From IMG/VR virus record IMGVR_UViG_3300021964_000718, positions 1-20,445 of that record: DNA of 20,445 bases; one strand, given 5' to 3'. Below the pieces are notes generated by a model. The model searched no databases and was not told the origin of the DNA. It saw nothing but the letters and a program-made list of their open reading frames with translations. The position numbers were made by a program, and so were the translations under genes. Below, in pieces: positions 1-15,107 of this stretch (positions within the stretch are counted from its first letter, which is position 1; the number at the start of each line of letters is the position of its first letter). This DNA comes from a virus.

Positions 1-3000
1 ATAAACGCAGACACAACGCCTGACAAGAAACTACCTGCAGCAGAACTGTAAGCTGCATCCTCAGCAGAATCCGCTTGTATCTGTGCTTTAAGCAACTCGT
101 GATCACGATCCATTTGCTTCTCAGAGCTAGTCCAAGCGAAGTCCATCAAGTCACGCTCTTGTTGCCACAACTCAGCTAAGCCTTGTAGTGTCAGGTTGTT
201 TTGCGCCATAACTTCAGCCATGTTAGCCTCATTAAGTGCCGCCGTATTAGCTGTAGCTATAGTCTGTCTCCATACTGTGTTAGCTTGTGCAATAACCAGT
301 TCGTTCTGTGCGTTAAACAGATCACGCTGATTATCAAGTTCAGCTTGAAACTTGGTCATTGTGTTTTCTTCACCAGCGTTAAACTGTTCCATAGCGTTAC
401 TCTGCGCTACGTTGAACTGGCTAATCTGTGTTGCCATACTTTCATAGAACTGATTAACTTGGTTGATACTCTCAGCGTTAAACTGTAGTTGAGCATTCTC
501 TGCAGCTTGATCTGAGAATATACTTTGCACAAGAGACTGTGCCTCAAACATGGTAGCTTGTTGTTCGTTATCTAAGTTAGCCATGTCCATCTGCAAGAAG
601 GCTTGTGCTTGCTGTGCTGCAGCCTGTTGACGGTTGTTGAGGTTAGCCATGTCAACGTCTGCCATAGCCGCTACATCAGCCATAAGCTTAGCTTGTTCGT
701 TGCTTAGGTTAGCCAAGTCTACAGACATAGCCATCTCAGAGTTACGCAGTGCTCTTGTTTGCGCCTCTGTGAAGTTCATGTTCGCTATCTCAGCAACACG
801 CTCAGCTTTAATAACAGCAACTTGTTGTTTATTTGTAAGCTCTTGCCCTTTCATTGCAGCTTCAATCTGTGCATTAGCGAGAGCAGTTTGCTGTCTATTA
901 GACAAGTTAGCCATATCAATAGTCATCTTGTTAGACATATTGAAGATAGCAGTCTGTTGTTCGTTGTTAAGTTCTATCTCACGTTCTGACATTACGTTAG
1001 AGATATTGAATAGAGCAGTCTGTTGTTTATTGTCTAAGACACGGCCTTCCATAGCTGCACGGGCAACAGCGTCTTGGATGAATGCTTGCTGTCTATTCGT
1101 AGCGTCTTGCATGTTAGCTTCAAACGCTTGTGTACTTTCAAGCACAGCCATCTGTTGATCATTAGACAACTCTTGGCCCATCATTGCAGCTTTAACTTGT
1201 AAGTTAGACAGGGCAGTCTGCTGTGCGTTAGACAGGTTAGCCATCTCTACTTCTAAGTTTTGTGTAGATTTAAGTATAGAGGTTTGCTGTCTGTTTGTCA
1301 AGTTAATATCGTTGACTGCAGCGTAACGTGCGGCATTAGCAAGTGCAACGTTAGCGCTAATACTTAGTTCTTGACCTTGAAGTGCAGCCTTAAACTGTGC
1401 ACTAGCAAGTACAGCTTCTTGTTCGTTTGATAAGTTCTTTAGTTGAAGGTTAGCATTATTCATGCTGTTCTGAATACGTACAGCTTGTTCGTTGGATAAG
1501 TTAGCTAACTCAAAGTTCTGTGCTGCAGCAGCATTAGCTAGAGCTACAGCCTGTGCATTACGAACATTCTCCATATCCATTGCAGCATAGGTAGCAGCAT
1601 CTGCTTGTGCCATAGGTATAGTCGCTTCCATAGCAGCCTGTACTATTGCAGCACCTGCCATAGAACTACCAGCTAAACCACGAGCAGCCATAGCAGCATT
1701 AGCTTTACGTAGAGCACCTGCAGCCCACGCTGGCGTACCATTATCAAACTGCTTCATAAGTTTTTCCATTTGGAATGAAACAGTAGATGCAGCAGATACC
1801 TCGCCTTTTACAGCTTTAGCTTCTAGCTGTTGTGTAAACGTAGCAGTTGCAGCCTTTGCAGTAGAGGCTTCGTTAAGAGCTTCTAGTGTCTTAGCTGTGA
1901 CAATAATTTCTTCACCATTAAGGATGTCATTTACATCAGCTAGTTCATCCTCACTAACAGTTGTTTGTTCTGCAGTTACATCAGGTTTAAACTCAGATTT
2001 CTTTTCATCTGCAGATGCATACTCATTAAAGTTAGCTGCATCTTCCACCTTACTCTTTTCAGATTCTGCCACTTGTGTAGGTGGTAAGTTGTAGTCTGTC
2101 TCAGCTTCTGCTTTAGGAGTTGTTGTTTCAAACTTAGCAGGATCAACCTCACCTACCTCACCCTCAAAGGTAACATCAGGTGCTGTCGTATATTTATCAA
2201 AGAGTGCCGCATCTGGCATCTCTCCATCTTCTATGTTACGGACTACCTGTGTTACTTCACGTATAGTATCTAAAGTAGCTGGATCTAAGTCTAACTGCGC
2301 TAACTCTTCAGGGTCCATCGTTGCAGCATCCATCAAAGCATCTTCTGATGGTGAACCTGTAGCTGCAGCAAAGTCAGCCAATGCTGATTTAACGTCAGCG
2401 TTAGACTCTATAGCATCGTATGTTTCTGTTGTAGCTTTTACTGCATCCTGTTCAATCTGAGTTTGCTGTGCTGCATAGTAGTCATTCATTGACTTTACAA
2501 TAGATTCAGGTAAAGGCTCTACCATAGGAATAGGACCATAAGGAGGGTACTTTTCCATACGCTCTTCAAGAGACAAACCTTGAAGGTACGCTTTTGATTT
2601 CTTAACTGCAGGGTTCTCTATTTCATCTGCAGCTTGTGCTTGCTTAACTAAAAGAGTAAGCGCATCAGCTACCTGACCTGTTGTACTATCAATAAGCTGA
2701 TCATCTTTAACTTCCAAGCCATACACTGTAGGCTGAGATAGGATAGCACTAGGTGTGGATATAGCTTTACCTAAGGCTTCACCAGTAGAGGGTACGTCTG
2801 TAGTCTCGAATCTTTTTTGGGCTGTGCTTACAGCAGCCTGTGTTTGTGTAACTGAAAGTTCAGCATTTGCTACTGCTTCTTCTAGAGCTTTGTATGCATC
2901 TTTGTCTGCTTGAGGTGCGTCATCTGCAGGTATAGTTGCACCACTCAAAGCTTGTTGTGCATCTGTAAGAGCACCCATAGCTGTGCTGTAGGCTTTCTGT

Positions 3001-3893
3001 GCTTCATCTAAAGCTGTAGCAGCTTCGCTAACTTCAGGGCTAGGCGTACCTTGCTTTAAGACAGGACCAGGTTGAAAAGCTTCTTGTACGGCTGCACCCG
3101 TATCTTGCACTGCTTTAAACTCAGGTGTGTTTTTTAATGCAGCCTCAAGCTGTTGGCCTTGCTGTGGCGTCATACCTTGTTCAGGTATACCAAGCTCACT
3201 ACGTATACGTGCAGTAGCTGTATTATAAGCAGTACCTGCTTTTTCGTTTTCAAGTATTAGACGTCTTTGCTCTTCCGTAGTGTTAGGGTATTTTTCTGCT
3301 ATGGCTAACATACGTTTAAATTCATTATCTTCGTCAGACTCGCCTTCCATCTGTGCAACGCCAAGCGCTTCGATCTGTTGTAATGAAACTCTCTCATCTT
3401 TTGGATCTAACTCAGGTTGATCTTCTTGTTCCTGCTCTTGTTGTTGTTCTTGTTGTTGCTCTACACCATTACCTGTATCTTGTGTTGTAGTAGTTGTTGT
3501 AGGTGTAGTAGTTGTTGTAGGTGTAGTAGTTGTTGTAGGTGTAGTAGTTGTTGTACTACTCAAAGGGCCAAAAGATGCTGCACCGCCACTTGTATTATAA
3601 TGATGCAGGGCAGACGTGTAATCTTCAAAGGTGGACTCGCCTACTTTATAGTAAGTACCGTTACCGCTTTGTATAGTCTGTATGCCCCCACCATCAGCAA
3701 ACCCTGTAGGAGCTAAGGGTCCACCTTCTATGCGTTGCCTAGCAATATCTGCATAACGTCCTAACTTAGAAGCAGCACTAGGGCTAGACGCAAGGAACGC
3801 ATCCATGTCATCCTTCTGCGCTGGGCCTGTGTAGCCCATCTCTTTTAGAAGGGTATGTGTTTGCTGATTGGTAAAACCTTTAAACTTTTTCAT
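1..3893 (-). CDS. Very large repeat-rich virion (internal/ejection-type) protein, C-terminus cut by window edge
   Basis: I checked this frame codon by codon from the ATG at 3893 to base 1 and found no stop, so at least 1297 residues are encoded and the gene runs out of the window. The ATG lies two bases past the previous gene's TAA, with AGGAAC upstream. Visible order: an N-terminal region starting MKKFKGFTNQQ; a Thr/Pro linker (residues 112-137) followed by a Gln/Glu-rich stretch; a long Ala/Glu/Asp-rich, probably helical middle; a small-residue-rich segment containing GTPAWAAGALRKAN and GLAGSSMAGAAI near residues 710-745; sixteen 22-residue repeats (776-1127); then a diverged tail of the same period ending SAAGSFLSGVVSAF. 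There is no enzyme motif. I recall similar LSN-x-QQ proteins in marine phage genomes, annotated only as structural. Size and position fit an internal or ejection protein, but that role is inference; a tail or fibre component is the alternative. Confidence 0.85.
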   Translation of the reverse strand, partial: MKKFKGFTNQQTHTLLKEMGYTGPAQKDDMDAFLASSPSAASKLGRYADIARQRIEGGPLAPTGFADGGGIQTIQSGNGTYYKVGESTFEDYTSALHHYNTSGGAASFGPLSSTTTTTPTTTTTPTTTTTPTTTTTTQDTGNGVEQQQEQQQEQEQEDQPELDPKDERVSLQQIEALGVAQMEGESDEDNEFKRMLAIAEKYPNTTEEQRRLILENEKAGTAYNTATARIRSELGIPEQGMTPQQGQQLEAALKNTPEFKAVQDTGAAVQEAFQPGPVLKQGTPSPEVSEAATALDEAQKAYSTAMGALTDAQQALSGATIPADDAPQADKDAYKALEEAVANAELSVTQTQAAVSTAQKRFETTDVPSTGEALGKAISTPSAILSQPTVYGLEVKDDQLIDSTTGQVADALTLLVKQAQAADEIENPAVKKSKAYLQGLSLEERMEKYPPYGPIPMVEPLPESIVKSMNDYYAAQQTQIEQDAVKATTETYDAIESNADVKSALADFAAATGSPSEDALMDAATMDPEELAQLDLDPATLDTIREVTQVVRNIEDGEMPDAALFDKYTTAPDVTFEGEVGEVDPAKFETTTPKAEAETDYNLPPTQVAESEKSKVEDAANFNEYASADEKKSEFKPDVTAEQTTVSEDELADVNDILNGEEIIVTAKTLEALNEASTAKAATATFTQQLEAKAVKGEVSAASTVSFQMEKLMKQFDNGTPAWAAGALRKANAAMAARGLAGSSMAGAAIVQAAMEATIPMAQADAATYAAMDMENVRNAQAVALANAAAAQNFELANLSNEQAVRIQNSMNNANLQLKNLSNEQEAVLASAQFKAALQGQELSISANVALANAARYAAVNDINLTNRQQTSILKSTQNLEVEMANLSNAQQTALSNLQVKAAMMGQELSNDQQMAVLESTQAFEANMQDATNRQQAFIQDAVARAAMEGRVLDNKQQTALFNISNVMSEREIELNNEQQTAIFNMSNKMTIDMANLSNRQQTALANAQIEAAMKGQELTNKQQVAVIKAERVAEIANMNFTEAQTRALRNSEMAMSVDLANLSNEQAKLMADVAAMADVDMANLNNRQQAAAQQAQAFLQMDMANLDNEQQATMFEAQSLVQSIFSDQAAENAQLQFNAESINQVNQFYESMATQISQFNVAQSNAMEQFNAGEENTMTKFQAELDNQRDLFNAQNELVIAQANTVWRQTIATANTAALNEANMAEVMAQNNLTLQGLAELWQQERDLMDFAWTSSEKQMDRDHELLKAQIQADSAEDAAYSSAAGSFLSGVVSAF
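513..1568 (-). repeat. Sixteen in-frame 66-bp (22-residue) repeats within the large virion protein
   Basis: Reading the frame by eye gives sixteen consecutive units of exactly 22 codons, residues 776-1127 of the large protein. The unit begins N/E-L-S/T/D/N-N-x-Q-Q, then a small or hydrophobic residue pair, and ends in patterns such as M-A or G-Q. Twelve units in a row keep a recognisable head motif and the first four are looser. A further five 22-residue blocks follow (to about nt 183) without the motif but with aromatic and Asn landmarks in register. The DNA is diverged between units, so the repeat is a protein-level pattern rather than a fresh DNA expansion. Confidence 0.85.
3483..3560 (-). 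repeat. 18-bp tandem repeat encoding a Thr-Pro linker
   Basis: An 18-base unit repeats about three to four times and encodes Pro followed by five Thr, giving a 26-residue low-complexity linker (residues 112-137 of the large protein). It is followed at once by a Gln/Glu-rich stretch. The units are nearly identical in DNA, unlike the 66-bp repeats, so this tract looks young and able to slip. It probably joins a small N-terminal domain to the helical body. Confidence 0.85.
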
Positions 3894-4899: not shown

Positions 4900-4916
4900 T
4901 TTTATGTAAATGTCAA
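4889..4916 (-). promoter_or_regulatory. Consensus sigma70-type promoter ahead of the left-end gene set
   Basis: On the minus strand TTGACA (4916-4911) is followed by a 16-base spacer and TATAAT (4894-4889). Both hexamers match the bacterial sigma70 consensus exactly. The -35 box overlaps the TGA stop of the chaperone-like gene, and the first ATG downstream is at 4852, leaving a leader of about 30 bases. It would let the host polymerase transcribe the small proteins and the giant repeat protein separately from the fibre genes. Confidence 0.75.
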
Positions 4917-5425
4917 GGTTTATTAGGCCAAGTTACACTAAAAGGAAAGCCACTCTGTGCTGGTACATCCCTTAGTGCTTGCCTGTAAGTAGTCATTTCA
5001 CTCGACATAGTTACATCTGATAAAGCCATCCAGTCAGTCTCTTGCAATAAGCTATCACGTTTAGCTCTTACGTTAGACTCTGCCGTGGCTTGTTCCATGT
5101 TCTGTGCAGTGTAAGATACTTCCCACTCGTTGCCGTACAGGGGTTGTCCTACCTGATCTGTATCTACCTCACCTGTCTCAGGGTCAGTACAGTCAGCCTC
5201 AGTCTTTATACGAATGACTTCCCGTGTAGGTGTACCCACTACAAGTGTCTGCACTAATGGATCATATGAAGGCTTATCTAATTCAGTAACCTCATAGACT
5301 GCATACCTACGCAAGATCGTGTTAGGTATCTGTGCAGGGAAAGATGTGTTTGGGTTATCACGGCGAAATTGTCCAATCGTGTATGGAAATTGATCGACAT
5401 TACCGTTTGTAAGTTTTACGAACAT
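4913..5425 (-). CDS. Tail/fibre assembly chaperone-like protein
   Basis: 170 residues, with an AAGGAG site before the ATG. The N-terminus (MFVKLTNGNVDQFPYTIGQF) and the region to about residue 100 look like a small beta-rich domain. The C-terminus carries the pattern R-x-x-RD-x-LL-x-x-TDW, then EM-x-x-YRQALRDVP and GFP-x-x-VTWP (residues about 120-168), which I recognise as the phage tail assembly chaperone family (Phage_tail_APC). Proteins of this family are found next to tail-fibre genes and are thought to help fibres fold or attach; this gene closes the adhesin block. Residue differences between copies in related phages would be expected to track the fibre they serve. Confidence 0.8.
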   Translation of the reverse strand: MFVKLTNGNVDQFPYTIGQFRRDNPNTSFPAQIPNTILRRYAVYEVTELDKPSYDPLVQTLVVGTPTREVIRIKTEADCTDPETGEVDTDQVGQPLYGNEWEVSYTAQNMEQATAESNVRAKRDSLLQETDWMALSDVTMSSEMTTYRQALRDVPAQSGFPFSVTWPNKP

Positions 5426-5434
5426 AGTTTCTCC

Positions 5435-6133
5435 TTAAAAGTTTGGAAATGGTGCTGTAGGGACAGTAAAGTTGGAAGTGTAACGAGCTACGCCTTTAGT
5501 AACACGAACATCATCCAAATAACCTTGAAAAGGAGAGCCGCCAACAGAATTAGCTCCTATAGATAACGCACTAGTAGATGTTGATACACTGCCTGTAAAT
5601 GTTGTTGAATAAACACTTGTGCCGTTTAAGTAGAGAGAAACTGTATTGCTTTCCCTAACAAAAGCACAATGATTCCAAGAATTTAAGCTTAAAGCAGATG
5701 TGCTTACATAGTCATTAAATAATCCATTATACAATAATCCTCGCAGGTATCTATTACCATCATTCGAGAGCAACAATACCCAAGCATAACTACTCGTCCA
5801 CTGCCCAATAATAATTGGTTGGGCGGGAGAAGCAGTTGGATATACCCAAGTCTCAATGGTAAAATCACTACTACCCAAATCCCATGCTGCATCATCTGGT
5901 GCGGTCAGGTAATCACCAGTTCCGTCAAACTCTATTGAACCAGTTCCAAACTTCTTAACGGCTGTATCTATTTGTGTATTACCACTAACAGTCATAGATA
6001 CTGAATTAGAACTACTATCCGTAATAGTCGTGCTGCCACTTGTTCCATCACCGTGAAGGAGAAGTTCTACATTAGCAAAATTAGGATCTCTTTCGCCAGC
6101 GCCACCCATCTGCATTAAACGTGATACACTCAT
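5435..6133 (-). CDS. Laminin-G/concanavalin-like lectin domain protein
   Basis: 232 residues. The ATG overlaps the upstream stop by four bases (ATGA), so translation is probably coupled. After a 20-residue lead (MSVSRLMQMGGAGERDPNFA) nearly the whole protein is one LamG_3-type jelly roll: VELLLHGDGTSGSTTITDSS near 23-42, then GSIEFDGTGDYLTAP, DFTIETWVYPT, WNHCAFVRESNTVSLYLNG and a closing GYLDDVRVTKGVARYTSNF (residues about 205-223). The last segment is typical of the family's final strands. Such domains bind carbohydrate or cell-surface polymers. The short lead is probably the attachment part. Role in host adhesion is inferred from fold and position; which sugar it binds cannot be read from sequence. 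Confidence 0.85.
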   Translation of the reverse strand: MSVSRLMQMGGAGERDPNFANVELLLHGDGTSGSTTITDSSSNSVSMTVSGNTQIDTAVKKFGTGSIEFDGTGDYLTAPDDAAWDLGSSDFTIETWVYPTASPAQPIIIGQWTSSYAWVLLLSNDGNRYLRGLLYNGLFNDYVSTSALSLNSWNHCAFVRESNTVSLYLNGTSVYSTTFTGSVSTSTSALSIGANSVGGSPFQGYLDDVRVTKGVARYTSNFTVPTAPFPNF

Positions 6134-8058
6134 GCCATTGCATCCCCTGCTCTAAAACCTTGGTAGGTAGTTCCACCATCGTCCGTGTAGAATACCAACA
6201 CATCTGTTTCATCTATTGCTGGGCCAGCAGGAGCTATGCCGCTAGGGAACTTCACTGATGAAGGGTATGTGAAGGTGGCTGCTGCTGTGGAGCCTGTGGA
6301 GTATTGGTAGATGGTACCCCCCTGATCAAGAATATACATTTTTGTGCCATCAGACTTAAATCTAATACTAGATGAACTTGATGCCTGAGATGCAACAGAA
6401 AAGCTAATGCTATCATATGATGCCGTACTTATATCCCATGCCGTTGAAAGGCTATATTGGAAAACACTGTCTGATGTAAGACCAACCATCCAAAACTTGT
6501 CACCATCTGGATTAAATGAAAGTGAATTAGGGTTAAGTTCTTCGGTAGCAACATTAAAGTTTGCAGCATAAGATGCAGTAGATACATCCCAAGCTGTACT
6601 TAATGAATACTCATTAACCTCATCTGCAGCAATGCCAGTAATATACATTTTTGTACCATCAGGCTTAAAACATACATCTCTTGGGTTTGATTCTTCAGTA
6701 TTAACTGAAAAAGAAACACTATCATATAAAGCAGTTGATACATCCCAAGCTGTGCTCATGCTGTATTGGTATACAGTTTTACGCTGATAACCAAGAAGAT
6801 AAAATTTAGAGCCATCTGGTTTGAAGAAAAGTCCAGTTGGGGTGTTTTCTTGGGTAGCTGTACTAAAACTAACACTGTCATATGATGCTGTAGATATGTC
6901 CCATGCCGTACTAAGAGAATATTGATAAATTCTATCGTTAGTAACTCCTATTAAATAAACCTTAGTTCCATCATCCTTAAAGAATATTTCTTGGGCATTT
7001 GTTTCTTGAGAAGCTACACTAAAGCTAACACTATCATAACTAGCATTAGCCAGATCATAAGTCTCAGCCGCATTACCACCAGTAAGTGCCAAAGCAAAAC
7101 CTGCTGCTGTGCCTGATGCTGGGGCGTTATTAAAGGCAAACAGAGTGTTTACTGAGGGAGTGTGACTGAAGTAGTTGCCTGTGGATAGATCAAGGGTAGT
7201 GGCTGTACCTGTAGAGTATTGGAAGACAGTATCAGTGGCATTACCAATGGCATACATTTTGCTTCCATCATTTTTAAATGTGAAGCCCCAAGGGGTTGTT
7301 TCTTCTGAAGCTAAACTAAATGAAACAGAGTTATACGTTCCAGTTGAAATATCGTAATTTGTAGATAAATCATATTTATATACAGTATCCGTCCCTAGAT
7401 TGTTAATATAAACTGCTGATCCATCGGGAGATACATAGATTGCACTTGTGCTAGAACCTCTTGCAGATACATCTAAAGACTTACTATCAGATGAAGCTGT
7501 CGAAACATCCCATGCAGTTGACATGGTAAATTGCTGAATTATACCACTGAGATTACTAGCCCACAGCTTGGTGCCATCAGTAGAAATGCTCAAACCTCTC
7601 GCATTTGTAAGCCCAGTGCTTAGAGTTTTGTTTGCATAAGAAGCCGTGCTTAGATCATATGCTGTTGTTAAATCATATTGATAAACAGTACTGTTAGTTG
7701 TTCCAACAATGTAAAATGAAGTACCGTCTGATTTGAAGACAACTGTGATTGGGGACGATTCTTGAGTGCTAACACTAAAGCTGACACTATCATATGTTGC
7801 TGAACTTGGGTTCCATGCTGTAGATAAACTATATTGATAAACACTGTACCCAGTAACACCAAGAACAAACATTTTTGATCCGTCAGAACTAAATGCAACA
7901 GATCGTGGGTTGTTGTCTTGCGAAGCAACACTAAAGCTCACACCATCATAACTAGCTACAGCAAGGTTATACGGGCCAGTACCAGCCGTAACTGTACCCA
8001 CACTCTTAGCCTGTGGTGCTGAGAATACGCCGCCGCTGTAACTAATGTCTAAGCTCAT
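6130..8058 (-). CDS. Adhesin paralogue with two 5-repeat propeller cassettes (10 repeats)
   Basis: 642 residues. The ATG overlaps the upstream stop as ATGA, and a GGAG site lies inside the previous gene's last codons. Layout: carrier lead (1-29, IDYS-like), five repeats (30-286), carrier piece TLDLSTGNYFSHTP onward (287-333), five more repeats (334-590), and a C-terminal carrier piece (591-642, TYPSSVKF to GFRAGDAMA). Repeats are 49-53 residues: D-x-STASYDSVSFS, then F-x-x-DG-x-KMY-x-x-G, then VYQYSLSTAW. The DG-x-K-x-Y pattern is that of beta-propeller blades in lactonase/YncE-like proteins, without catalytic residues I can identify. Both cassettes are 257 residues, consistent with two five-bladed propellers. 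It is likely a virion surface adhesin; ligand unknown. Confidence 0.85.
   Translation of the reverse strand: MSLDISYSGGVFSAPQAKSVGTVTAGTGPYNLAVASYDGVSFSVASQDNNPRSVAFSSDGSKMFVLGVTGYSVYQYSLSTAWNPSSATYDSVSFSVSTQESSPITVVFKSDGTSFYIVGTTNSTVYQYDLTTAYDLSTASYANKTLSTGLTNARGLSISTDGTKLWASNLSGIIQQFTMSTAWDVSTASSDSKSLDVSARGSSTSAIYVSPDGSAVYINNLGTDTVYKYDLSTNYDISTGTYNSVSFSLASEETTPWGFTFKNDGSKMYAIGNATDTVFQYSTGTATTLDLSTGNYFSHTPSVNTLFAFNNAPASGTAAGFALALTGGNAAETYDLANASYDSVSFSVASQETNAQEIFFKDDGTKVYLIGVTNDRIYQYSLSTAWDISTASYDSVSFSTATQENTPTGLFFKPDGSKFYLLGYQRKTVYQYSMSTAWDVSTALYDSVSFSVNTEESNPRDVCFKPDGTKMYITGIAADEVNEYSLSTAWDVSTASYAANFNVATEELNPNSLSFNPDGDKFWMVGLTSDSVFQYSLSTAWDISTASYDSISFSVASQASSSSSIRFKSDGTKMYILDQGGTIYQYSTGSTAAATFTYPSSVKFPSGIAPAGPAIDETDVLVFYTDDGGTTYQGFRAGDAMA
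6289..7059 (-). repeat. Second propeller cassette, five ~156-bp repeats
   Basis: Residues 334-590 of the 642-residue protein, made of five units of 53, 52, 52, 51 and 49 residues. It sits between the carrier segment ending LALTGGNAAET and the segment beginning with the TYPSS strand. The matching cassette of the 379-residue paralogue sits at the same point. Confidence 0.85.
7201..7971 (-). repeat. First propeller cassette, five ~156-bp repeats
   Basis: Residues 30-286 of the 642-residue protein, made of five units of 53, 52, 49, 52 and 51 residues. It interrupts the carrier domain between its VGTVT strand and the TLDLSTG strand, a position left uninterrupted in the two neighbouring paralogues. 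Confidence 0.85.
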
Positions 8059-9194
8059 GCTAGTGCATCTCCTACTTGAAATCCGTAATACGTTGTACCG
8101 CCATCGTCCGTATAGAATGTGTACACATCAGTCTCACCGTTGGCAGGTGTTGTGGGTGTTATGCCGCCTGACCAAATGACAGATGATGGGTAAGTGATTG
8201 TTGCTAGTGCAGTTGAGCCTGTGGAGTATTGGTAGACTGCTGGTGGAGACGCCTGTGATAAGGCGTACATCTTGTCTCCAGCAAAGCTAAAAACCAGATC
8301 AAGAGGCCAGTTCATTTGTGAAGAAACGCTAAAGCTAATGCTAGCATAAGATGCCGTAGATAAATCAAATGGGGTAGAAAGACTATATTCAAATACGGTG
8401 TCACTGTTATAGCCCAAGATAAACATCTTATTGCCACCAGAAGAAAAAGCTAAACCCTCTGGGGCAGTCTCTTGCGAACTAACACTAAAGCTAACGCTAT
8501 CATATGTTGCTGTAGACAAATCAAAAGCTGTAGAAAGGCTGTATTGATAGACGGTAGAACCCTCCACACCAAATAATCTTGTACCTCCTGCATTAAATAC
8601 AACATCTCTTTCATTAAAAGAGCTTAGGCTAACGCTATCATAAGAGGCTGTAGACAAATCAAAAGCTGTAGAAAGGCTGTATTGATAGGCGGCACCTGTA
8701 GTTCCACCAGAAACATACATTTTAGACCCCGTATTATTAAATGCAATACCTAATGGGGATGTATCTTGCGAATTAACACTAAAGCTAACGCTATCATAAG
8801 AAGCTGTAGAAACATCCCAAGCTGTAGAAAGGCTGTATTGATAAACTGATGAGTTAGGGCCGTCAAGTAAATACATTTTATCGCCATCAACACTAAAGGC
8901 TAGTCCTCTAGCGTCTGAGGTTTGACTTGCAAAACTAAAGCTAACACTGTCGTAGGAAGCATTGGCTAAATCATAACCAGTAACAACATTAGCCCCTGTC
9001 AGCTTTAATGTTGCACTAGAAGCTGTACCTGATGCTGGGGGATTGCTGAATGCAAAGGTGGTATTAGCAGTAGGCGTATGGCTAAACACAGAGCCTGTCG
9101 ATAAGTCTAGCGTAGCATTGCCTGTAACAGTACCAACACCATCACCTTCTGTAGTCTCAAAGAACCCTTTGGTATAATCAATAAGCACAGTCAT
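8055..9194 (-). CDS. Adhesin paralogue with one 5-repeat propeller cassette
   Basis: 379 residues, start coupled to the upstream gene by an ATGA overlap. Residues 1-73 are the carrier lead (VLIDYTKGFFET, GTVTGNATLDLS, FSHTPTANTTFAFSNPPASG) and match the 120-residue neighbour closely. Residues 74-327 are five propeller-type repeats of about 51 residues; the third is shortened to about 46. Residues 328-379 are the closing carrier half (ITYPSSVIWSGG to TTYYGFQVGDALA). The cassette lies between carrier strands that are adjacent in the short paralogue. It is likely a virion surface protein of the fibre block. A pentameric-repeat lectin (tachylectin-like) fold is one possible model; no enzyme motif is seen. 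Confidence 0.85.
   Translation of the reverse strand: MTVLIDYTKGFFETTEGDGVGTVTGNATLDLSTGSVFSHTPTANTTFAFSNPPASGTASSATLKLTGANVVTGYDLANASYDSVSFSFASQTSDARGLAFSVDGDKMYLLDGPNSSVYQYSLSTAWDVSTASYDSVSFSVNSQDTSPLGIAFNNTGSKMYVSGGTTGAAYQYSLSTAFDLSTASYDSVSLSSFNERDVVFNAGGTRLFGVEGSTVYQYSLSTAFDLSTATYDSVSFSVSSQETAPEGLAFSSGGNKMFILGYNSDTVFEYSLSTPFDLSTASYASISFSVSSQMNWPLDLVFSFAGDKMYALSQASPPAVYQYSTGSTALATITYPSSVIWSGGITPTTPANGETDVYTFYTDDGGTTYYGFQVGDALA
8214..8975 (-). repeat. Propeller cassette, five repeats
   Basis: Residues 74-327 of the 379-residue protein: five units with the pattern D-L-STASYDSVSFS, F-x-x-x-G-x-K-M-Y and VYQYSLST. Several units share near-identical DNA stretches around the ASYDSVS and YQYSLSTA codons, so recombination between units is plausible. 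Confidence 0.85.
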
Positions 9195-9553
9195 GCCATT
9201 GCATCTCCTGCTTGAAAACCGTAGTACGTAGTGCCACCATCAAGCGTGAAGAAGTTGTACACATCCTTCTCGCCACTAGCAGGTGCAGATGGTGCAGTAC
9301 CCCCAGCCCATTTTACTGAGGAAGGCCAAGTAAGTGTAACCGTTGCAGAAGGTGCTACCTTCAATGTAAAGTCATATGCACTGCCTGTAGTAGGTGGATT
9401 GCTAAACACGAAAGTTACATTAGCCGTTGGTGTATGATTAAAAAGATTACCTGATGTTAAATCTAATGTAGCATTACCTGTGATTGTACCAACAGTTTCA
9501 CCTGAAGGTACAGCTTCAAAGACACCATTTGAGTAATCAATTACAAGGCCCAT
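9191..9553 (-). CDS. Minimal carrier-domain adhesin, no propeller
   Basis: 120 residues, with an AAGGAT-type site before the ATG. The whole protein is the bare carrier domain of its two larger paralogues: LVIDYSNGVFEAV, VGTITGNATLDLTSGNLFNH, FVFSNPPTTGSAYDFTLKV, then VTLTWPSSVKWAGG and GGTTYYGFQAGDAMA. Predicted strands alternate with loops, suggesting a small beta sandwich. The LKVAPSATVTLTW junction is where the 379- and 642-residue proteins carry five propeller repeats. It could be the ancestral unit, a hetero-oligomer partner for the others, or a deletion product. It starts the three-gene series, each joined to the next by ATGA. Confidence 0.85.
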   Translation of the reverse strand: MGLVIDYSNGVFEAVPSGETVGTITGNATLDLTSGNLFNHTPTANVTFVFSNPPTTGSAYDFTLKVAPSATVTLTWPSSVKWAGGTAPSAPASGEKDVYNFFTLDGGTTYYGFQAGDAMA

Positions 9554-9882: not shown

Positions 9883-11103
9883 TTAGGCGTAAGTTACTTC
9901 AGATGTGTGGATCGTAGCGACCCAGCGAATGTTTGTAGAGGCTGCACCAGTCACTGTGATTGCCAAGCCACCGTTTGTTGTGTCAGCACTTAGAGCCATG
10001 CCCCACGATGGTGTGTTGTCTAGGACAGTTGTTGCACTATTGACTAGCACCGTTGTACCAGCAGAACCTTCCCTGCGTATCAAGCCTTCTACCTTCCATG
10101 CGGCACTCGCTGTACCACCAGATGCTTGCTGACGTGCTACGATGGTGCCGTGGAAGGCATAGGCAGCATTATTAGCTAAGATAATTTGGTTGTTAGATGA
10201 AACGGTACTTCTATTAGTGGTAAGAGCTTCTGCTGTAGCGTCTGTAGTATCAGCCAAAAGAACATAAATACCTGTTTGACTATAAAGAGAACTAGCACCA
10301 AAATCTGCGGCAGCATAAGCCAACTTACCAATTAACTCAGCTTTTGCGTTCCTACCAATGGCAGTGGAATATTCCCCTGATGCCAGTGATTGATACCCCA
10401 ACGCCGTAGATTGACTTCCAGATGCTACGCATGATCTACCAACAGCTACAGAGTTTCCTGCTGTTGCTTGAGTTTGATACCCTATTGATGTTCCAAAAGT
10501 TCCACTTGCCTTTGCTCGCCACCCCAGCGCAATACTATTAGAACTAGTAGCACCATAGCTAGAGGTGTTGTTGTCAATAACAGCAGCAAAACTGTCTGTT
10601 CCACCAGCCCTTGAATTACCTAGTGCAATAGAGTCTATCCCTGCTGCTTGTGCGTTATAACCAAAAGCAGCGGCGTTAGTACCAGTAGCGTCCGTGTTAT
10701 ATCCAATCGCAAAACTATCTGCTGCAGATGCTAAACTGTTTTCACCAATTGCAACACTGTCCTGACCTTGCGAACGAGCAGCTTCACCCATAGCAATTGA
10801 TCTATTTCCAACAGCACCATAGGCAGTATTACCGCCCCCATTGATTGCACAGAAAGCACCATCACCAGCGGCACTGCCAACACCAATAGCTATAGCACCA
10901 GACCCACCAGCATTAGACCCACTACCTATCGCAACGCCATTTGTGCCGCCAGCAAGGGGAGTCGTTGGCGTAGAAGGATTTTCAGCATAAAGCTCTAAAG
11001 CAGAACCACCAACCGCTGTACCCCCAAGTAAGAGGCTAGTACCGTCAGAGCTTAGAGTAATGCCCCCACCAGAGCCTGTGTGATCTATCTCGATTTTACC
11101 CAT
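9883..11103 (-). CDS. YadA-head-like fibre protein, paralogue of the main fibre's C-terminal third
   Basis: 406 residues. The start overlaps the fibre gene's stop by one base (TAATG), and a GAGG site lies in that gene. The lead KIEIDHTGSGGGITLSSDGT is a short beta stretch. Residues about 50-250 carry YadA/Hep_Hag-type head repeats (VAIGSGS, AIAIGVGSAA, SIAMGEAA, SVAIGENSLA, SIALGWRAKA). Residues 253-406 are a C-terminal domain ending LSADTTNGGLAITVTG, WVATIHTSEVTYA. Residues 37-406 align by eye with residues 968-1334 of the neighbouring fibre, with a nearly identical core containing NNTSSYGAT and SIALG. Such repeats form trimeric left-handed beta rolls. It is probably a second trimeric fibre or tip. 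The C-terminal domain may be the receptor-binding or trimer-closing part. Confidence 0.85.
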   Translation of the reverse strand: MGKIEIDHTGSGGGITLSSDGTSLLLGGTAVGGSALELYAENPSTPTTPLAGGTNGVAIGSGSNAGGSGAIAIGVGSAAGDGAFCAINGGGNTAYGAVGNRSIAMGEAARSQGQDSVAIGENSLASAADSFAIGYNTDATGTNAAAFGYNAQAAGIDSIALGNSRAGGTDSFAAVIDNNTSSYGATSSNSIALGWRAKASGTFGTSIGYQTQATAGNSVAVGRSCVASGSQSTALGYQSLASGEYSTAIGRNAKAELIGKLAYAAADFGASSLYSQTGIYVLLADTTDATAEALTTNRSTVSSNNQIILANNAAYAFHGTIVARQQASGGTASAAWKVEGLIRREGSAGTTVLVNSATTVLDNTPSWGMALSADTTNGGLAITVTGAASTNIRWVATIHTSEVTYA

Positions 11104-14100
11104 TATGCGTTTACAACCTCACTTGTATGAACTGTAGCAACCCAATTAAGGTTTGTAGCTGCAATACCAGTTACTTCTATTTTAAGTCCACCGTTTGTGG
11201 TATCTGCTGAAAGTGCTACGGATGCACTTGCTAGTCCTGCTGTATGGTACAAACTATTTACTATGCCAACTCCAAGTGTAGTATCAGCAGCCGTACCCTG
11301 TCGCATTATTACACCTTTGATCTCCCAACCTGCATAGTCATCACCATCCGTTGCATCTTCACGTACAACCACTGTGCCTGTAAAGGTCATGGCAGATTCA
11401 TTTTGTAAAATAATTTGGTTAGTAGTTCCTGCTGTACCATTAGTTGCAGTAAGTGCTTCAGGGGTTGCATCTGTTGTATCACTTCTTAAAACATACATAG
11501 ATGCTTGGGCATCGCCTGTATTGGCAAATAAACCAGAAGCATGCGCCCATTGCCCCCGTATAGTTGCTTTAGCTCTTAACCCAGATGCAACTGTATATTG
11601 CTGACTAGTTTCATTTCGTTCACCACCTATAATTACAGAATACAAACCACCACTATTAATAGTATTGTTTTCACCACCAATTATAGCACCATTGTTTGCA
11701 CTAACAGTATTACTAAGCCCTCCACCAATAAAACTTCTTGAGGTAGTAACTGAGTTACCGTTACCTCCTATTACAGAACTTTCATACCCCGAAGCCCTAT
11801 TATTATACCCTAGTGCAATACTTCTAGTATTTGTAGCACCATAGCTTGATGTATTGTTTCCTATAGCTGCAGCAAAGCTGTCTGTGCCAGAGGCGTAAGC
11901 CTTACCTAATGATTGCGCCTGATTTCCAGCAGTAACACCGCCTGATGTAGCAAATGAACCATTACCCCCTGCAATTGAGCCGTTGCCTCCCGCATCAGAA
12001 CCTATTGCTATTGCATAATAAGATGCATTTGCCGTTGCATTAGTGCCAATAGCGCCATTGTAAGTTCCTGTTATCGCATCTGCGCTATACCCAATTGCAA
12101 AGTTTTGAGTATTGTTAGCAACAGCACTATCCCCAATAGCTATTGCATTGGCACCTGTCGCACTTGGCTGTGCAGTGGGAGAACTTTCGTTAGCAGCATA
12201 AAGGTCAGCGCCAGAAGCCATGTCCACAAAACTCAACACCCCAGAGCCATTTGTAGTTAGTACCTGCCCACTTGTACCATCAGTGATAGCTGCAGTAGGT
12301 GCAGTAGTAAATACAGCTACGTTACCTGTAGCATCAGGGAATGTAATTGTACGATCTGCTGTTGGGTTTGTAAAGGATACTGTAGTTTCGTTAGCATCTG
12401 CACTAGAACCTTCAACACTAAACCCTGAGTCACTTAAATACAAACCAGATACAGTTGGGCTTGTCAGTGTCTTATTAGTAAGTGTCTTAGTCGTACCTGA
12501 GAAGTATGTGTCAAGTAAGTCTACATCAAAGTAACCAATAGCTGATGCAGAAGAGTCAAACACTGCAATGCCATCGTTGTTAGCGATAGCAGTACTTGTG
12601 TCAATCGTAATAGCTGATACATCTGCTACAGCATTAAGTTCAGCACCTGTAGCTGTCAGACCAGTTACGTTGTTAGATACTCCATTAACTGCTTGGATAC
12701 GTGACTCTACGGCTGCTGCAGTTGGTAGCTCAGAGTTAGTAGATCCTGCACCTACACTGGTTACAATATCAGTTACACTGTCTGTACCATCTGACAGAGT
12801 ACCAAATGTAATTGTACCTGTAGTGGTGATAGCACTCGATCCATTATTAATAGAACCAAAGTTACTTGTAATGCTACCACTATCAAGAGCACCTACTGTA
12901 GTCACATTGCTCAGTGTATCTAGTGCACTCTCAAAGTATGTCTCAAAGTCAGTAAGTGCTACCTGCTTCATAGTGCCAGCATCATTAACTACAACTCTAT
13001 CTGCATCTGCAAGGGTAGTAGCCGTAGCTGCTGTATCACCATCCATGATGTTTATTTCAGTAGCAGTAGCAGTTACACCTGTAAGATCCGTAGGTGCAAT
13101 ACTGATGTTAGCTGTACCATCAAAAGACTGACCAGCAATTGTACGTGCAGTTTCTAAAGCAGTAGCTGTCGCAGCATTACCAGAGGTATCCTGATTACCT
13201 GCTGTATTAACACCGGGCAAGTTTATATTAGCTGTACCGTCAAAGCTAACGCCACCAATAGTACGAGCCGTTTGTAGTGCCGTTGCAGTATCTGCATTAC
13301 CTGTTAGATCACCAGTAACATTACCTGTTATATTACCTGTAACATTACCTTCAATGTTAGCTACAAGTGTACCTGTAGTAATTGTAAGATCACCTGTAGA
13401 TGCACCAGTAAATGTACCTGTACCTACAGTAAACTTATCTGCACTTTCATCCCAACCAATAAAGGCATTATCAGATGTACCACGTTCAATGACAATACCA
13501 GCATCATTAGAAGGTGTACCTGTAGTACCATTACCTAGTTCCATTAACAAATCAGCAACGACAGTGTTGGTTGTGCTAATTGTAGTAGTTGTTCCGTTTA
13601 CAGTTAAGTCACCGCCTACAATAACGTTACCTGTTGTAGTAATTGCGTCAATGTATCCATGTGACCAATAGTTAGAACTGTCACCTAAACTATATGTACT
13701 GTCTGCACTTGGTATGAGATTAGAGGCTACATCTGCTGTAATTGTAACAGTATCTGTAGCTGCATTACCAATAGTAGTGTTACCATTAAAGGTAGCTGCA
13801 CCTGATACAGTAATAGAACCAAAAGAGTTTGCACCCGTAGAAGTTACATTACCCGTAAGGTTGCCAGTTACATTACCCGTAACATCTCCTGTCAGATCTC
13901 CTGTTACATTACCAGTTACGTTTCCAGTTACATTCCCTGTGACATTACCTGTTAGGTTGCCAGTTACATCCCCTGTGACATCTCCTGTCAAGTCTCCCGT
14001 CACGTTACCCGTAACATTGCCAGTAACATTACCTGTTACGTTACCAGTGACGTTACCTGTCAGAGCACCTGTAATTGCAGTAATGTTGGCAGCATCACCA

Positions 14101-15107
14101 TAGATATTTGCCCAACGAATAGAAGTAGTACCTAAATTATATAAGCTATCAGATGCAGGGTTAAGGTTTTTAGCTGTTGAAGTTGTACCTACAAGATTAC
14201 CTGTAACGTCACCCGTTAAGTTTCCTGTTACATTACCAGTGACATTGCCCGTAACGTTACCTGTGAGATTTCCTGTTACGTTGCCTGTCACGTTTCCTGT
14301 AAGTGGACCTACAAGAGATGTACCTGTAATGGTTGTACCTGTGATGGCTGCTGCAGTAGTACCACCAATTACCGTGTTATCTATAGCACCACCATTAATA
14401 TCAACAGTAGTAAGTGTAGATGTACCTGTAGCTGTAAGGGTTGTAAACGTACCAGCAGCAGCAGTTGTTCCACCAATGGTAGCAGCATCAATTGTACCAC
14501 CGTTAATATCTGCAGTGTCAGCTACAAGGCTATCAATGTTAGCAATACCATCAATGTAAAGATTACGCCACTCAGAGCCTGTAGCACCTAAGTCGTATGT
14601 ATCGTCAGCAGAAGGAAGAAGTGCAGAAGCAATATCAGCAGTAAAGGTTACAGTGTCAGTAGCAGCATTACCTAAAGTAGCATTACCATTTACTGTAAGG
14701 TTGCCTGTAATCGTAGCATTCTCATCAACTTGCAGGGTATCAATAGTAGCAGTGCCATCTAGGTACAAGTTTTTAAATTCTACGCTAGATGTACCAAGAT
14801 CAATATCGTTATCTGTGACAGGAGTGATAAGACCATCTTGGAATCTAACTTGTTCTACGGCTGCAGCAGATACCTCTACAAATACACCAACACGATTATT
14901 TGATGTATCTATAACTACTTTATTAAGCGCATCTGAATCAGCAATAAGTGGTACGTATGCGCCCTCTGCTGCAGTACCATCGTGCTTGTGTCCAGTTGAA
15001 GCATTAAACGCAGCAAGTACTTGGTCAAACTCTAGGTTTAACGGGTTAGCCCGTACAACGGCTGTTGCCACAATGTCTGCTGAAGATTGTCTTGTATAAC
15101 CTGCCAC
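11103..15107 (-). CDS. Main tail fibre, GNVT-repeat and YadA-head modular protein
   Basis: 1334 residues, starting at a GTG (15107) with GGAG eight bases upstream. Residues 1-60 (NPLNLEFDQVLAAFN, GHKHDGTAAEGAYVPL) are a likely tail-attachment lead. Four copies of a DLG-x-x-x-x-W-x-NLYIDG type motif follow (near residues 100, 170, 330 and 460). Three GN(V/L)TG arrays lie at 269-307, 349-422 and about 582-602. Later come ELGNGTTGTPSNDAGIVIER, a T4 fibre-like TALQTARTIGGVSFDGTANI twice, YadA-like head repeats (from 968) and a C-terminal domain (1179-1334). The repeats would give a long, thin, probably trimeric beta-structured shaft. It follows the nozzle gene by three bases, as expected for the fibre attached to it. 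No chaperone-cleaved intramolecular domain or enzyme motif is seen. Confidence 0.9.
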   Translation of the reverse strand: MAGYTRQSSADIVATAVVRANPLNLEFDQVLAAFNASTGHKHDGTAAEGAYVPLIADSDALNKVVIDTSNNRVGVFVEVSAAAVEQVRFQDGLITPVTDNDIDLGTSSVEFKNLYLDGTATIDTLQVDENATITGNLTVNGNATLGNAATDTVTFTADIASALLPSADDTYDLGATGSEWRNLYIDGIANIDSLVADTADINGGTIDAATIGGTTAAAGTFTTLTATGTSTLTTVDINGGAIDNTVIGGTTAAAITGTTITGTSLVGPLTGNVTGNVTGNLTGNVTGNVTGNVTGNLTGDVTGNLVGTTSTAKNLNPASDSLYNLGTTSIRWANIYGDAANITAITGALTGNVTGNVTGNVTGNVTGNVTGDLTGDVTGDVTGNLTGNVTGNVTGNVTGNVTGDLTGDVTGNVTGNLTGNVTSTGANSFGSITVSGAATFNGNTTIGNAATDTVTITADVASNLIPSADSTYSLGDSSNYWSHGYIDAITTTGNVIVGGDLTVNGTTTTISTTNTVVADLLMELGNGTTGTPSNDAGIVIERGTSDNAFIGWDESADKFTVGTGTFTGASTGDLTITTGTLVANIEGNVTGNITGNVTGDLTGNADTATALQTARTIGGVSFDGTANINLPGVNTAGNQDTSGNAATATALETARTIAGQSFDGTANISIAPTDLTGVTATATEINIMDGDTAATATTLADADRVVVNDAGTMKQVALTDFETYFESALDTLSNVTTVGALDSGSITSNFGSINNGSSAITTTGTITFGTLSDGTDSVTDIVTSVGAGSTNSELPTAAAVESRIQAVNGVSNNVTGLTATGAELNAVADVSAITIDTSTAIANNDGIAVFDSSASAIGYFDVDLLDTYFSGTTKTLTNKTLTSPTVSGLYLSDSGFSVEGSSADANETTVSFTNPTADRTITFPDATGNVAVFTTAPTAAITDGTSGQVLTTNGSGVLSFVDMASGADLYAANESSPTAQPSATGANAIAIGDSAVANNTQNFAIGYSADAITGTYNGAIGTNATANASYYAIAIGSDAGGNGSIAGGNGSFATSGGVTAGNQAQSLGKAYASGTDSFAAAIGNNTSSYGATNTRSIALGYNNRASGYESSVIGGNGNSVTTSRSFIGGGLSNTVSANNGAIIGGENNTINSGGLYSVIIGGERNETSQQYTVASGLRAKATIRGQWAHASGLFANTGDAQASMYVLRSDTTDATPEALTATNGTAGTTNQIILQNESAMTFTGTVVVREDATDGDDYAGWEIKGVIMRQGTAADTTLGVGIVNSLYHTAGLASASVALSADTTNGGLKIEVTGIAATNLNWVATVHTSEVVNA
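13842..14063 (-). repeat. GNVT array, about 18 units of 12 bp
   Basis: Residues 349-422 of the fibre are built of four-residue units G-(N/D)-(V/L)-T without interruption. In DNA the units are 12 bases long, but Gly, Val, Thr and Asn codons vary from unit to unit, so identical runs are short. Confidence 0.9.
14187..14303 (-). repeat. GNVT array, about 9-10 units of 12 bp
   Basis: Residues 269-307 of the fibre: G-N-(V/L)-T units ending GNLVGTT. A short third array lies near 13300-13360. All three follow the same 12-base period. Confidence 0.9.

Follow-up and report, generated by a model that had tools for sequence, protein, structure and literature searches.

Predicted five-bladed propeller cassettes in two loops of a viral carrier domain and their exchange as whole units

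Three adjacent genes of the viral record IMGVR_UViG_3300021964_000718, analysed over its whole 20,445 bases (the window), encode one common carrier domain that holds none, five or ten copies of a repeat. The explanation that we favour, and consider likely, is that two-loop carriers of tail fibres take up complete five-bladed propellers, that whole cassettes are heritable and exchanged via their edges, and that the propellers are binding heads for the host surface. In its capsid protein the window shares 81% identity with Roseobacter phage CRP-345 and 76% with Puniceispirillum phage HMO-2011, and it is therefore a fragment of an HMO-2011-type podovirus.

Carrier domain and propeller cassettes

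The initial annotation had described genes of 120, 379 and 642 residues with a common domain and 0, 5 and 10 repeats, and the open reading frames (ORFs) lie exactly where it placed them, on the minus strand. Gene A (9191..9553, minus strand), recognised from the ORF list and carrier matches, is the bare carrier of 120 residues with both slots empty. In gene B (8055..9194, minus strand; 379 residues; ORF, repeats and AlphaFold2 model), slot 2, which lies between LTG and TYPSS, holds five repeats of 46-52 residues. In gene C (6130..8058, minus strand; 642 residues; ORF, repeats and model), five repeats occupy slot 1, which lies between VGTVT and TLDLS, and a further five occupy slot 2. These are the insertion points first proposed. 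With boundaries drawn from YDLANA or YNLAVA to YQYSTG, the gene B cassette comprises 253 residues (residues 74-326; 8217..8975, minus strand; repeats and model), and those of gene C comprise 255 in slot 1 (residues 30-284; 7207..7971, minus strand; repeats and model) and 256 in slot 2 (residues 334-589; 6292..7059, minus strand; repeats and DNA comparison). The description of the cassettes as five-repeat blocks stands, with these lengths in place of the earlier 254, 257 and 257. Between the two cassettes of gene C, carrier annotation places its middle carrier segment, TTLDLSTGNYF...LALTGG (7060..7206, minus strand). Each cassette ends in a right-edge repeat (TxYQYSTG codons), found in gene B at 8218..8241 (minus strand) with other copies at 7208-7231 and 6293-6316, and the DNA repeats of the window (52 nucleotides in 12 copies, 108 nucleotides in nine) are far from chance. 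Genes A, B, C and a fourth gene, D, are joined by ATGA overlaps of four nucleotides each; the overlapping of A, B and C suggests that their products may assemble as heteromers.

The carrier matches the tail-fibre families PHROG 7760 (E 2.6e-11) and PHROG 9017 (E 1.1e-9), as well as annotated fibre proteins of Roseobacter phages CRP-603 and CRP-4 and of GAP31-like phages. In addition, a phage tail assembly (fibre) chaperone lies downstream of the series (4913..5425, minus strand; PF16778, E 5.7e-20; PHROG 4912). Kinship with annotated fibre proteins and an adjoining fibre chaperone thus support a tail-fibre location of the carrier proteins. The bare-carrier architecture (12C) is widespread among relatives, and the contents of slot 1 and slot 2 seen so far are empty/empty, empty/5, 5/5, empty/10, 5/empty, LamG/empty and LamG/5. 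The carrier is a scaffold in which two loops tolerate insertions. Comparison of the carrier profile with sequences in the PDB gave a single weak match, to the lectin LSLa (E 0.1), which we do not count as evidence, and a genome scan with the carrier gave just four weak matches, from which a cellular origin was not traced.

The idea of five-bladed propellers displayed on a scaffold domain agrees with the AlphaFold2 monomer models, in which a lone leading strand precedes five confidently predicted units. For gene C, modelled with 26 relatives, the propeller regions reach a predicted local distance difference test score (pLDDT) of 90-98, and the carrier is mostly at about 50 or below. For gene B, modelled with 53 sequences that added many bare carriers, carrier and propeller together have a mean pLDDT of 93.9 and a predicted template modelling score (pTM) of 0.85. 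The strand order in both models is one leading strand (E80-87 in gene B), four four-strand units and a final three-strand unit; the first strand of the third gene B repeat, which is 46 residues long, is short. Because the sole partner of an outermost propeller strand is a blade's third strand, the leading strand has only one possible partner, the third strand of blade 5. The strand list thus fits a five-bladed propeller with Velcro closure in each cassette. With such a closure the two ends of the domain would lie next to each other, and this explains its fit into a carrier loop.

Foldseek searches with gene B matched PDB propellers of six and seven blades at TMq values of about 0.4, often with a root-mean-square deviation (rmsd) of about 16 Å. 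Predicted structures of several viral proteins superpose far better on gene B, at 1.4-2.8 Å over 249-280 columns, among them a baseplate wedge protein (1.4 Å over 249 columns), and the ICBM2 protein was found at a TMq of 0.69. A search with the whole two-propeller model returned tandem propellers, for example seven-bladed ones, at an rmsd above 18 Å and was uninformative on blade number.

Blade counts in relatives

Viral contigs were searched with seven queries, and the 281 records obtained from the first six queries and the genome scan were annotated with carrier and blade profiles. After removal of near-duplicates and of arrays cut by contig ends, the survey, which takes the best 80 loci per scan, leaves 205 complete arrays. 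As the initial annotation had proposed for relatives, nearly all (193 of the 205) are multiples of five, with 136 arrays of five blades, 49 of ten, seven of fifteen and one of twenty-five. Among the 12 others, eight are frameshifts (two each at loci L242 and L269) or contain blades missed by the model, as judged by length (L243, L116, L258 and L098); another three (L039, L053 and L159) belong to giant or divergent proteins, and the last is taken up below.

In each of the 50 ten-blade arrays, blades 5 and 6 are joined by a linker that differs from the usual one and in many of them resembles the start of a cassette; ten is therefore five plus five. That ten repeats would instead close as single ten-bladed rings, a reading suggested by their contiguity within one slot (12b10C), is close to implausible in the light of this linker and of gene C, where the two cassettes occupy different slots and the model gives each of them a separate leading strand.

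A test of single repeats by position, proposed at the outset, came out divided. Blade 5 keeps its positional identity and alone stands out, whereas blades 1-4 do so much less, and most blades have a blade 1 as their nearest neighbour. Mean blade identity inside a cassette is 0.47, at least equal to that between cassettes. The identity of blade 5 is what would be expected if the multiples of five reflected only shared ancestry from one five-blade ancestor, with no structural selection. We find this very unlikely, since position hardly sets blades 1-4 apart and their within-cassette identity leaves ample chance for slippage, rare products of six and three blades do occur, and the two cassettes of one protein are just 38-57% identical, so that enough time has passed for such changes.

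Two isolates agree with these counts: gp51 of Lentibacter phage ICBM2 has five blades and gp42 of Roseobacter phage CRP-9 has 5/5/5. CRP-9 gp42 belongs with proteins at L139, L136, L138, L145, L140 and L227 of 1175-1432 residues, in which three five-blade cassettes are separated by about 90-120 residues of other sequence, an arrangement distinct from the two-slot carrier. In ICBM2 (L286, 2477-6879), three fibre-type genes are each followed by their own tail assembly chaperone, and the middle one carries a five-blade cassette.

Whether a repeated blade must reach the right number before it can fold is an open question (PMC6805158). The arrays found here in nature, some two hundred different ones of which many have blades that resemble one another, are locked to multiples of five and amount to a natural experiment on that question.

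Exchange of whole cassettes

The unit gained or lost was thought to be a whole five-repeat block, and DNA comparison bears this out, as identity switches at the cassette edges. Between gene C of the window and that of the related locus L006, carrier segments share 82-100% of their DNA (mostly above 90%; 93-97% in the middle segment), whereas both cassettes are at about 55%. Conversely, the slot-2 cassette of window gene C is 90-100% identical to the gene B cassette of L006, in carriers that are 53-68% identical. Another case joins the gene C slot-1 cassette of L017 to the gene C slot-2 cassette of L018, with 85-100% identity inside and 41-62% outside; the gene C carriers of these two loci are mostly 90-97% identical. 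Finally, L032 (five blades) and L033 (ten) agree at 95-100% throughout the first block of five blades, and L033 then continues into a second block. The breakpoints lie within the leading-strand codons (SYDSVSFS) and the closing-strand codons (T[VI]YQYST).

A search of 37,950 cassette pairs for mosaics, in which single blades would have been exchanged, gave no pair with at least two blades at 85% or more and at least two at 65% or less, and 43 pairs had all five blades at 80% or more, many of them inside a close 10-blade family. In 28 gene C pairs with carriers at least 85% identical, the median cassette identity was 46% in slot 1 (maximum 59) and 53% in slot 2 (maximum 61). Conservation at the synonymous level is 0.53 in the left and 0.56 in the right edge codons, against 0.37-0.48 in equivalent internal codons, a rise that fits recombination through the cassette edges.

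Poor assembly of repeats, in a set of loci that is nearly all metagenomic, could in principle yield both the apparent moves and the block counts. We regard such artefacts as extremely unlikely: the cultured phages ICBM2 (5) and CRP-9 (5/5/5) show the same counts, the DNA of the carriers that flank moved cassettes differs by 30-45%, a distance at which chimeras would not readily be joined, and identical architectures recur across independent samples.

By sequence and model, each cassette starts with the outermost strand of its last blade and ends with the third strand of that blade. In the explanation that we favour, only closed five-blade rings would survive, so that misaligned recombination giving four or six blades would not persist. 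Purging of slippage between similar blades would leave the whole cassette as the unit that is inherited and exchanged. The comparisons show that cassettes move whole between slots, paralogous genes and phages, and the route would be homologous recombination at the conserved edge codons.

The slots also accept another cargo. LamG was found in slot 1 in three lineages only (L017; L018 with L019; L255), either by itself or together with a slot-2 propeller. Gene D (5435..6133, minus strand), a member of the overlapping series that the initial annotation had overlooked, encodes 232 residues, with a short N-terminal anchor peptide, MSVSRLMQMGGAG, followed by LamG (Laminin_G_3, PF13385, E 1.2e-27). 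Its LamG and the slot-1 LamG of L019 show two differences in the first 60 aligned residues, and the remainder diverges; LamG cargo is therefore found in two settings, the gene D anchor and a carrier. In relatives, the anchor, MS[IV][AS]RLMQM, holds one or two free-standing five-blade propellers. We note that in L019 the gene D position (6399-7145) is occupied by a 248-residue protein with the same anchor, MSVSRLMQM, and a cargo without any Pfam match, a third cargo type.

Probable host recognition and known systems

The propellers would be displayed on the virion as heads that bind the host surface, probably glycans, and in slot 1 and on the anchor of gene D, LamG would serve as another kind of head. 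Gain, loss and swapping of propellers are probably the way in which these viruses change the cell surfaces that they recognise. A broader proposal, which we put forward tentatively and regard as possible rather than probable, is combinatorial display, in which translationally coupled two-slot carriers are refilled by edge recombination from a population-wide pool of closed domains (five-bladed propellers and LamG), and cassettes switch to new receptors with no dedicated recombinase or retroelement. As regards a diversity-generating retroelement, no reverse transcriptase was noticed among the ORFs of the window, which is a fragment and was given no dedicated search.

The blade sequence is recognisably of the YVTN, Lactonase and SMP-30 superfamily (PF10282, PF08450; PDB 1l0q), and the Lactonase profile PF10282 scores 52.7 bits against a cut-off of 21.7 in the 642-residue protein (E 5.1e-14), with SGL at E 3.9e-10. 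As both families pass their Pfam cut-offs, the propellers might be lactonase-like or glycan-degrading enzymes, or else passive fibre spacers, and not receptor-binding heads. We judge this unlikely. Neither family is five-bladed (the Lactonase ring has seven blades, in contrast to the five per cassette here), and similarity of blade sequence is common to many propellers. Strong divergence of cassettes on conserved carriers fits recognition better, and lectin-like LamG domains alternate in the same slot, with a fibre chaperone downstream.

Several points weigh against the explanation based on exchangeable receptor-binding propellers. Ring closure is derived from strand assignment in the models and not from measured coordinates, and receptor binding and virion display are likewise reached by reasoning. 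The survey was seeded with five- and ten-blade queries and retains the best 80 hits, which may favour arrays of similar length. L118, the remaining non-five array, is a genuine case of 5+3; equally genuine are the six blades in the opening block of L028, outside the count since its ORF is truncated; and the giant, divergent L039 and L053 give no clean blade count. Outside the close 10-blade family, only about five block moves are well resolved, and the raised conservation of edge codons may partly be hitch-hiking or linkage with the conserved carrier. We note that the rare non-five blocks (L028:5067-6458, six; L118:262-1620, 5+3) occur in families with near-identical blades; they are possibly fresh slippage products or assembly errors.

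The initial annotation knew of no such system, and this holds in part. A five-bladed propeller closed by an N-terminal strand is known from the trimeric receptor-binding protein Gp45 of Staphylococcus phage phi11, and PRD1 P2 is a distorted five-bladed propeller among phage receptor-binding proteins (PMC4901313). The propellers predicted from genes B and C resemble Gp45 in their five four-stranded blades and N-terminal strand closure, and glycan binding has been proposed for the phi11 protein. However, the Gp45 propeller is one in-line platform domain of the trimer and not a cassette nested in carrier loops, and neither a copy-number series nor cassette exchange has been described for phi11 (PMC4901313). 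We found no sequence relationship between Gp45 and the propellers here, and, in the 379-residue and 642-residue models, neither a helical stem like the coiled coil of the phi11 homotrimer nor a C-terminal tower.

Tandem arrays in whole-ring multiples are also known from WRAP, a recently amplified WD40 propeller of Nostoc whose 14 blades form two closed rings of seven (PDB 2YMU; PMC6805158). In contrast to the present system, WRAP is a single bacterial protein with seven-bladed rings and without carrier or swapping. Closer are ICBM2 gp51 and CRP-9 gp42, which share the blade family and the multiples of five; ICBM2 gp51 has, moreover, a carrier-like N-terminal part and adjoins tail chaperones. 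Both are annotated as hypothetical only, CRP-9 with three spaced cassettes instead of a two-slot carrier, and propellers go unmentioned in the published descriptions of these two phages. Similarly, Alteromonas phages A5 and V22 exchange modular tail fibres and chaperones (PMC10579305), a horizontal exchange of host-recognition modules together with fibre chaperones, although whole recognition modules are exchanged there and not loop-inserted closed-ring cassettes between slots. Our literature search, which reached few subscription papers, found no account of a carrier whose two slots hold exchangeable five-blade cassettes; both this carrier and the exchange in quanta of five appear undescribed.

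The system is likely a host-range determinant in abundant marine podoviruses of the HMO-2011 type and in many other viral contigs. At least 595 relatives were confirmed in one scan, today mostly annotated as hypothetical.

In the order of minus-strand transcription, the window runs from fibre genes with YadA-head repeats (11103-15107 and 9883-11103, minus strand; Pfam-level domain matches) through a gene of 101 residues and the A-B-C-D series to the tail assembly chaperone. The 1334-residue fibre protein encoded at 11103-15107 has long runs of the tetrapeptide (N/D)(V/L)TG ahead of its YadA-head repeats, corresponding to tandem units of 12, 24, 36 and 96 nucleotides at 13842-14347. At the other end of the window, an ORF of at least 1297 residues (3-3893, minus strand) runs off the record and is perhaps an internal virion protein; it contains many degenerate NLSNxQQTAxxNAQ repeats and a threonine-proline-rich stretch encoded by an 18-nucleotide tandem repeat at 3486-3555.
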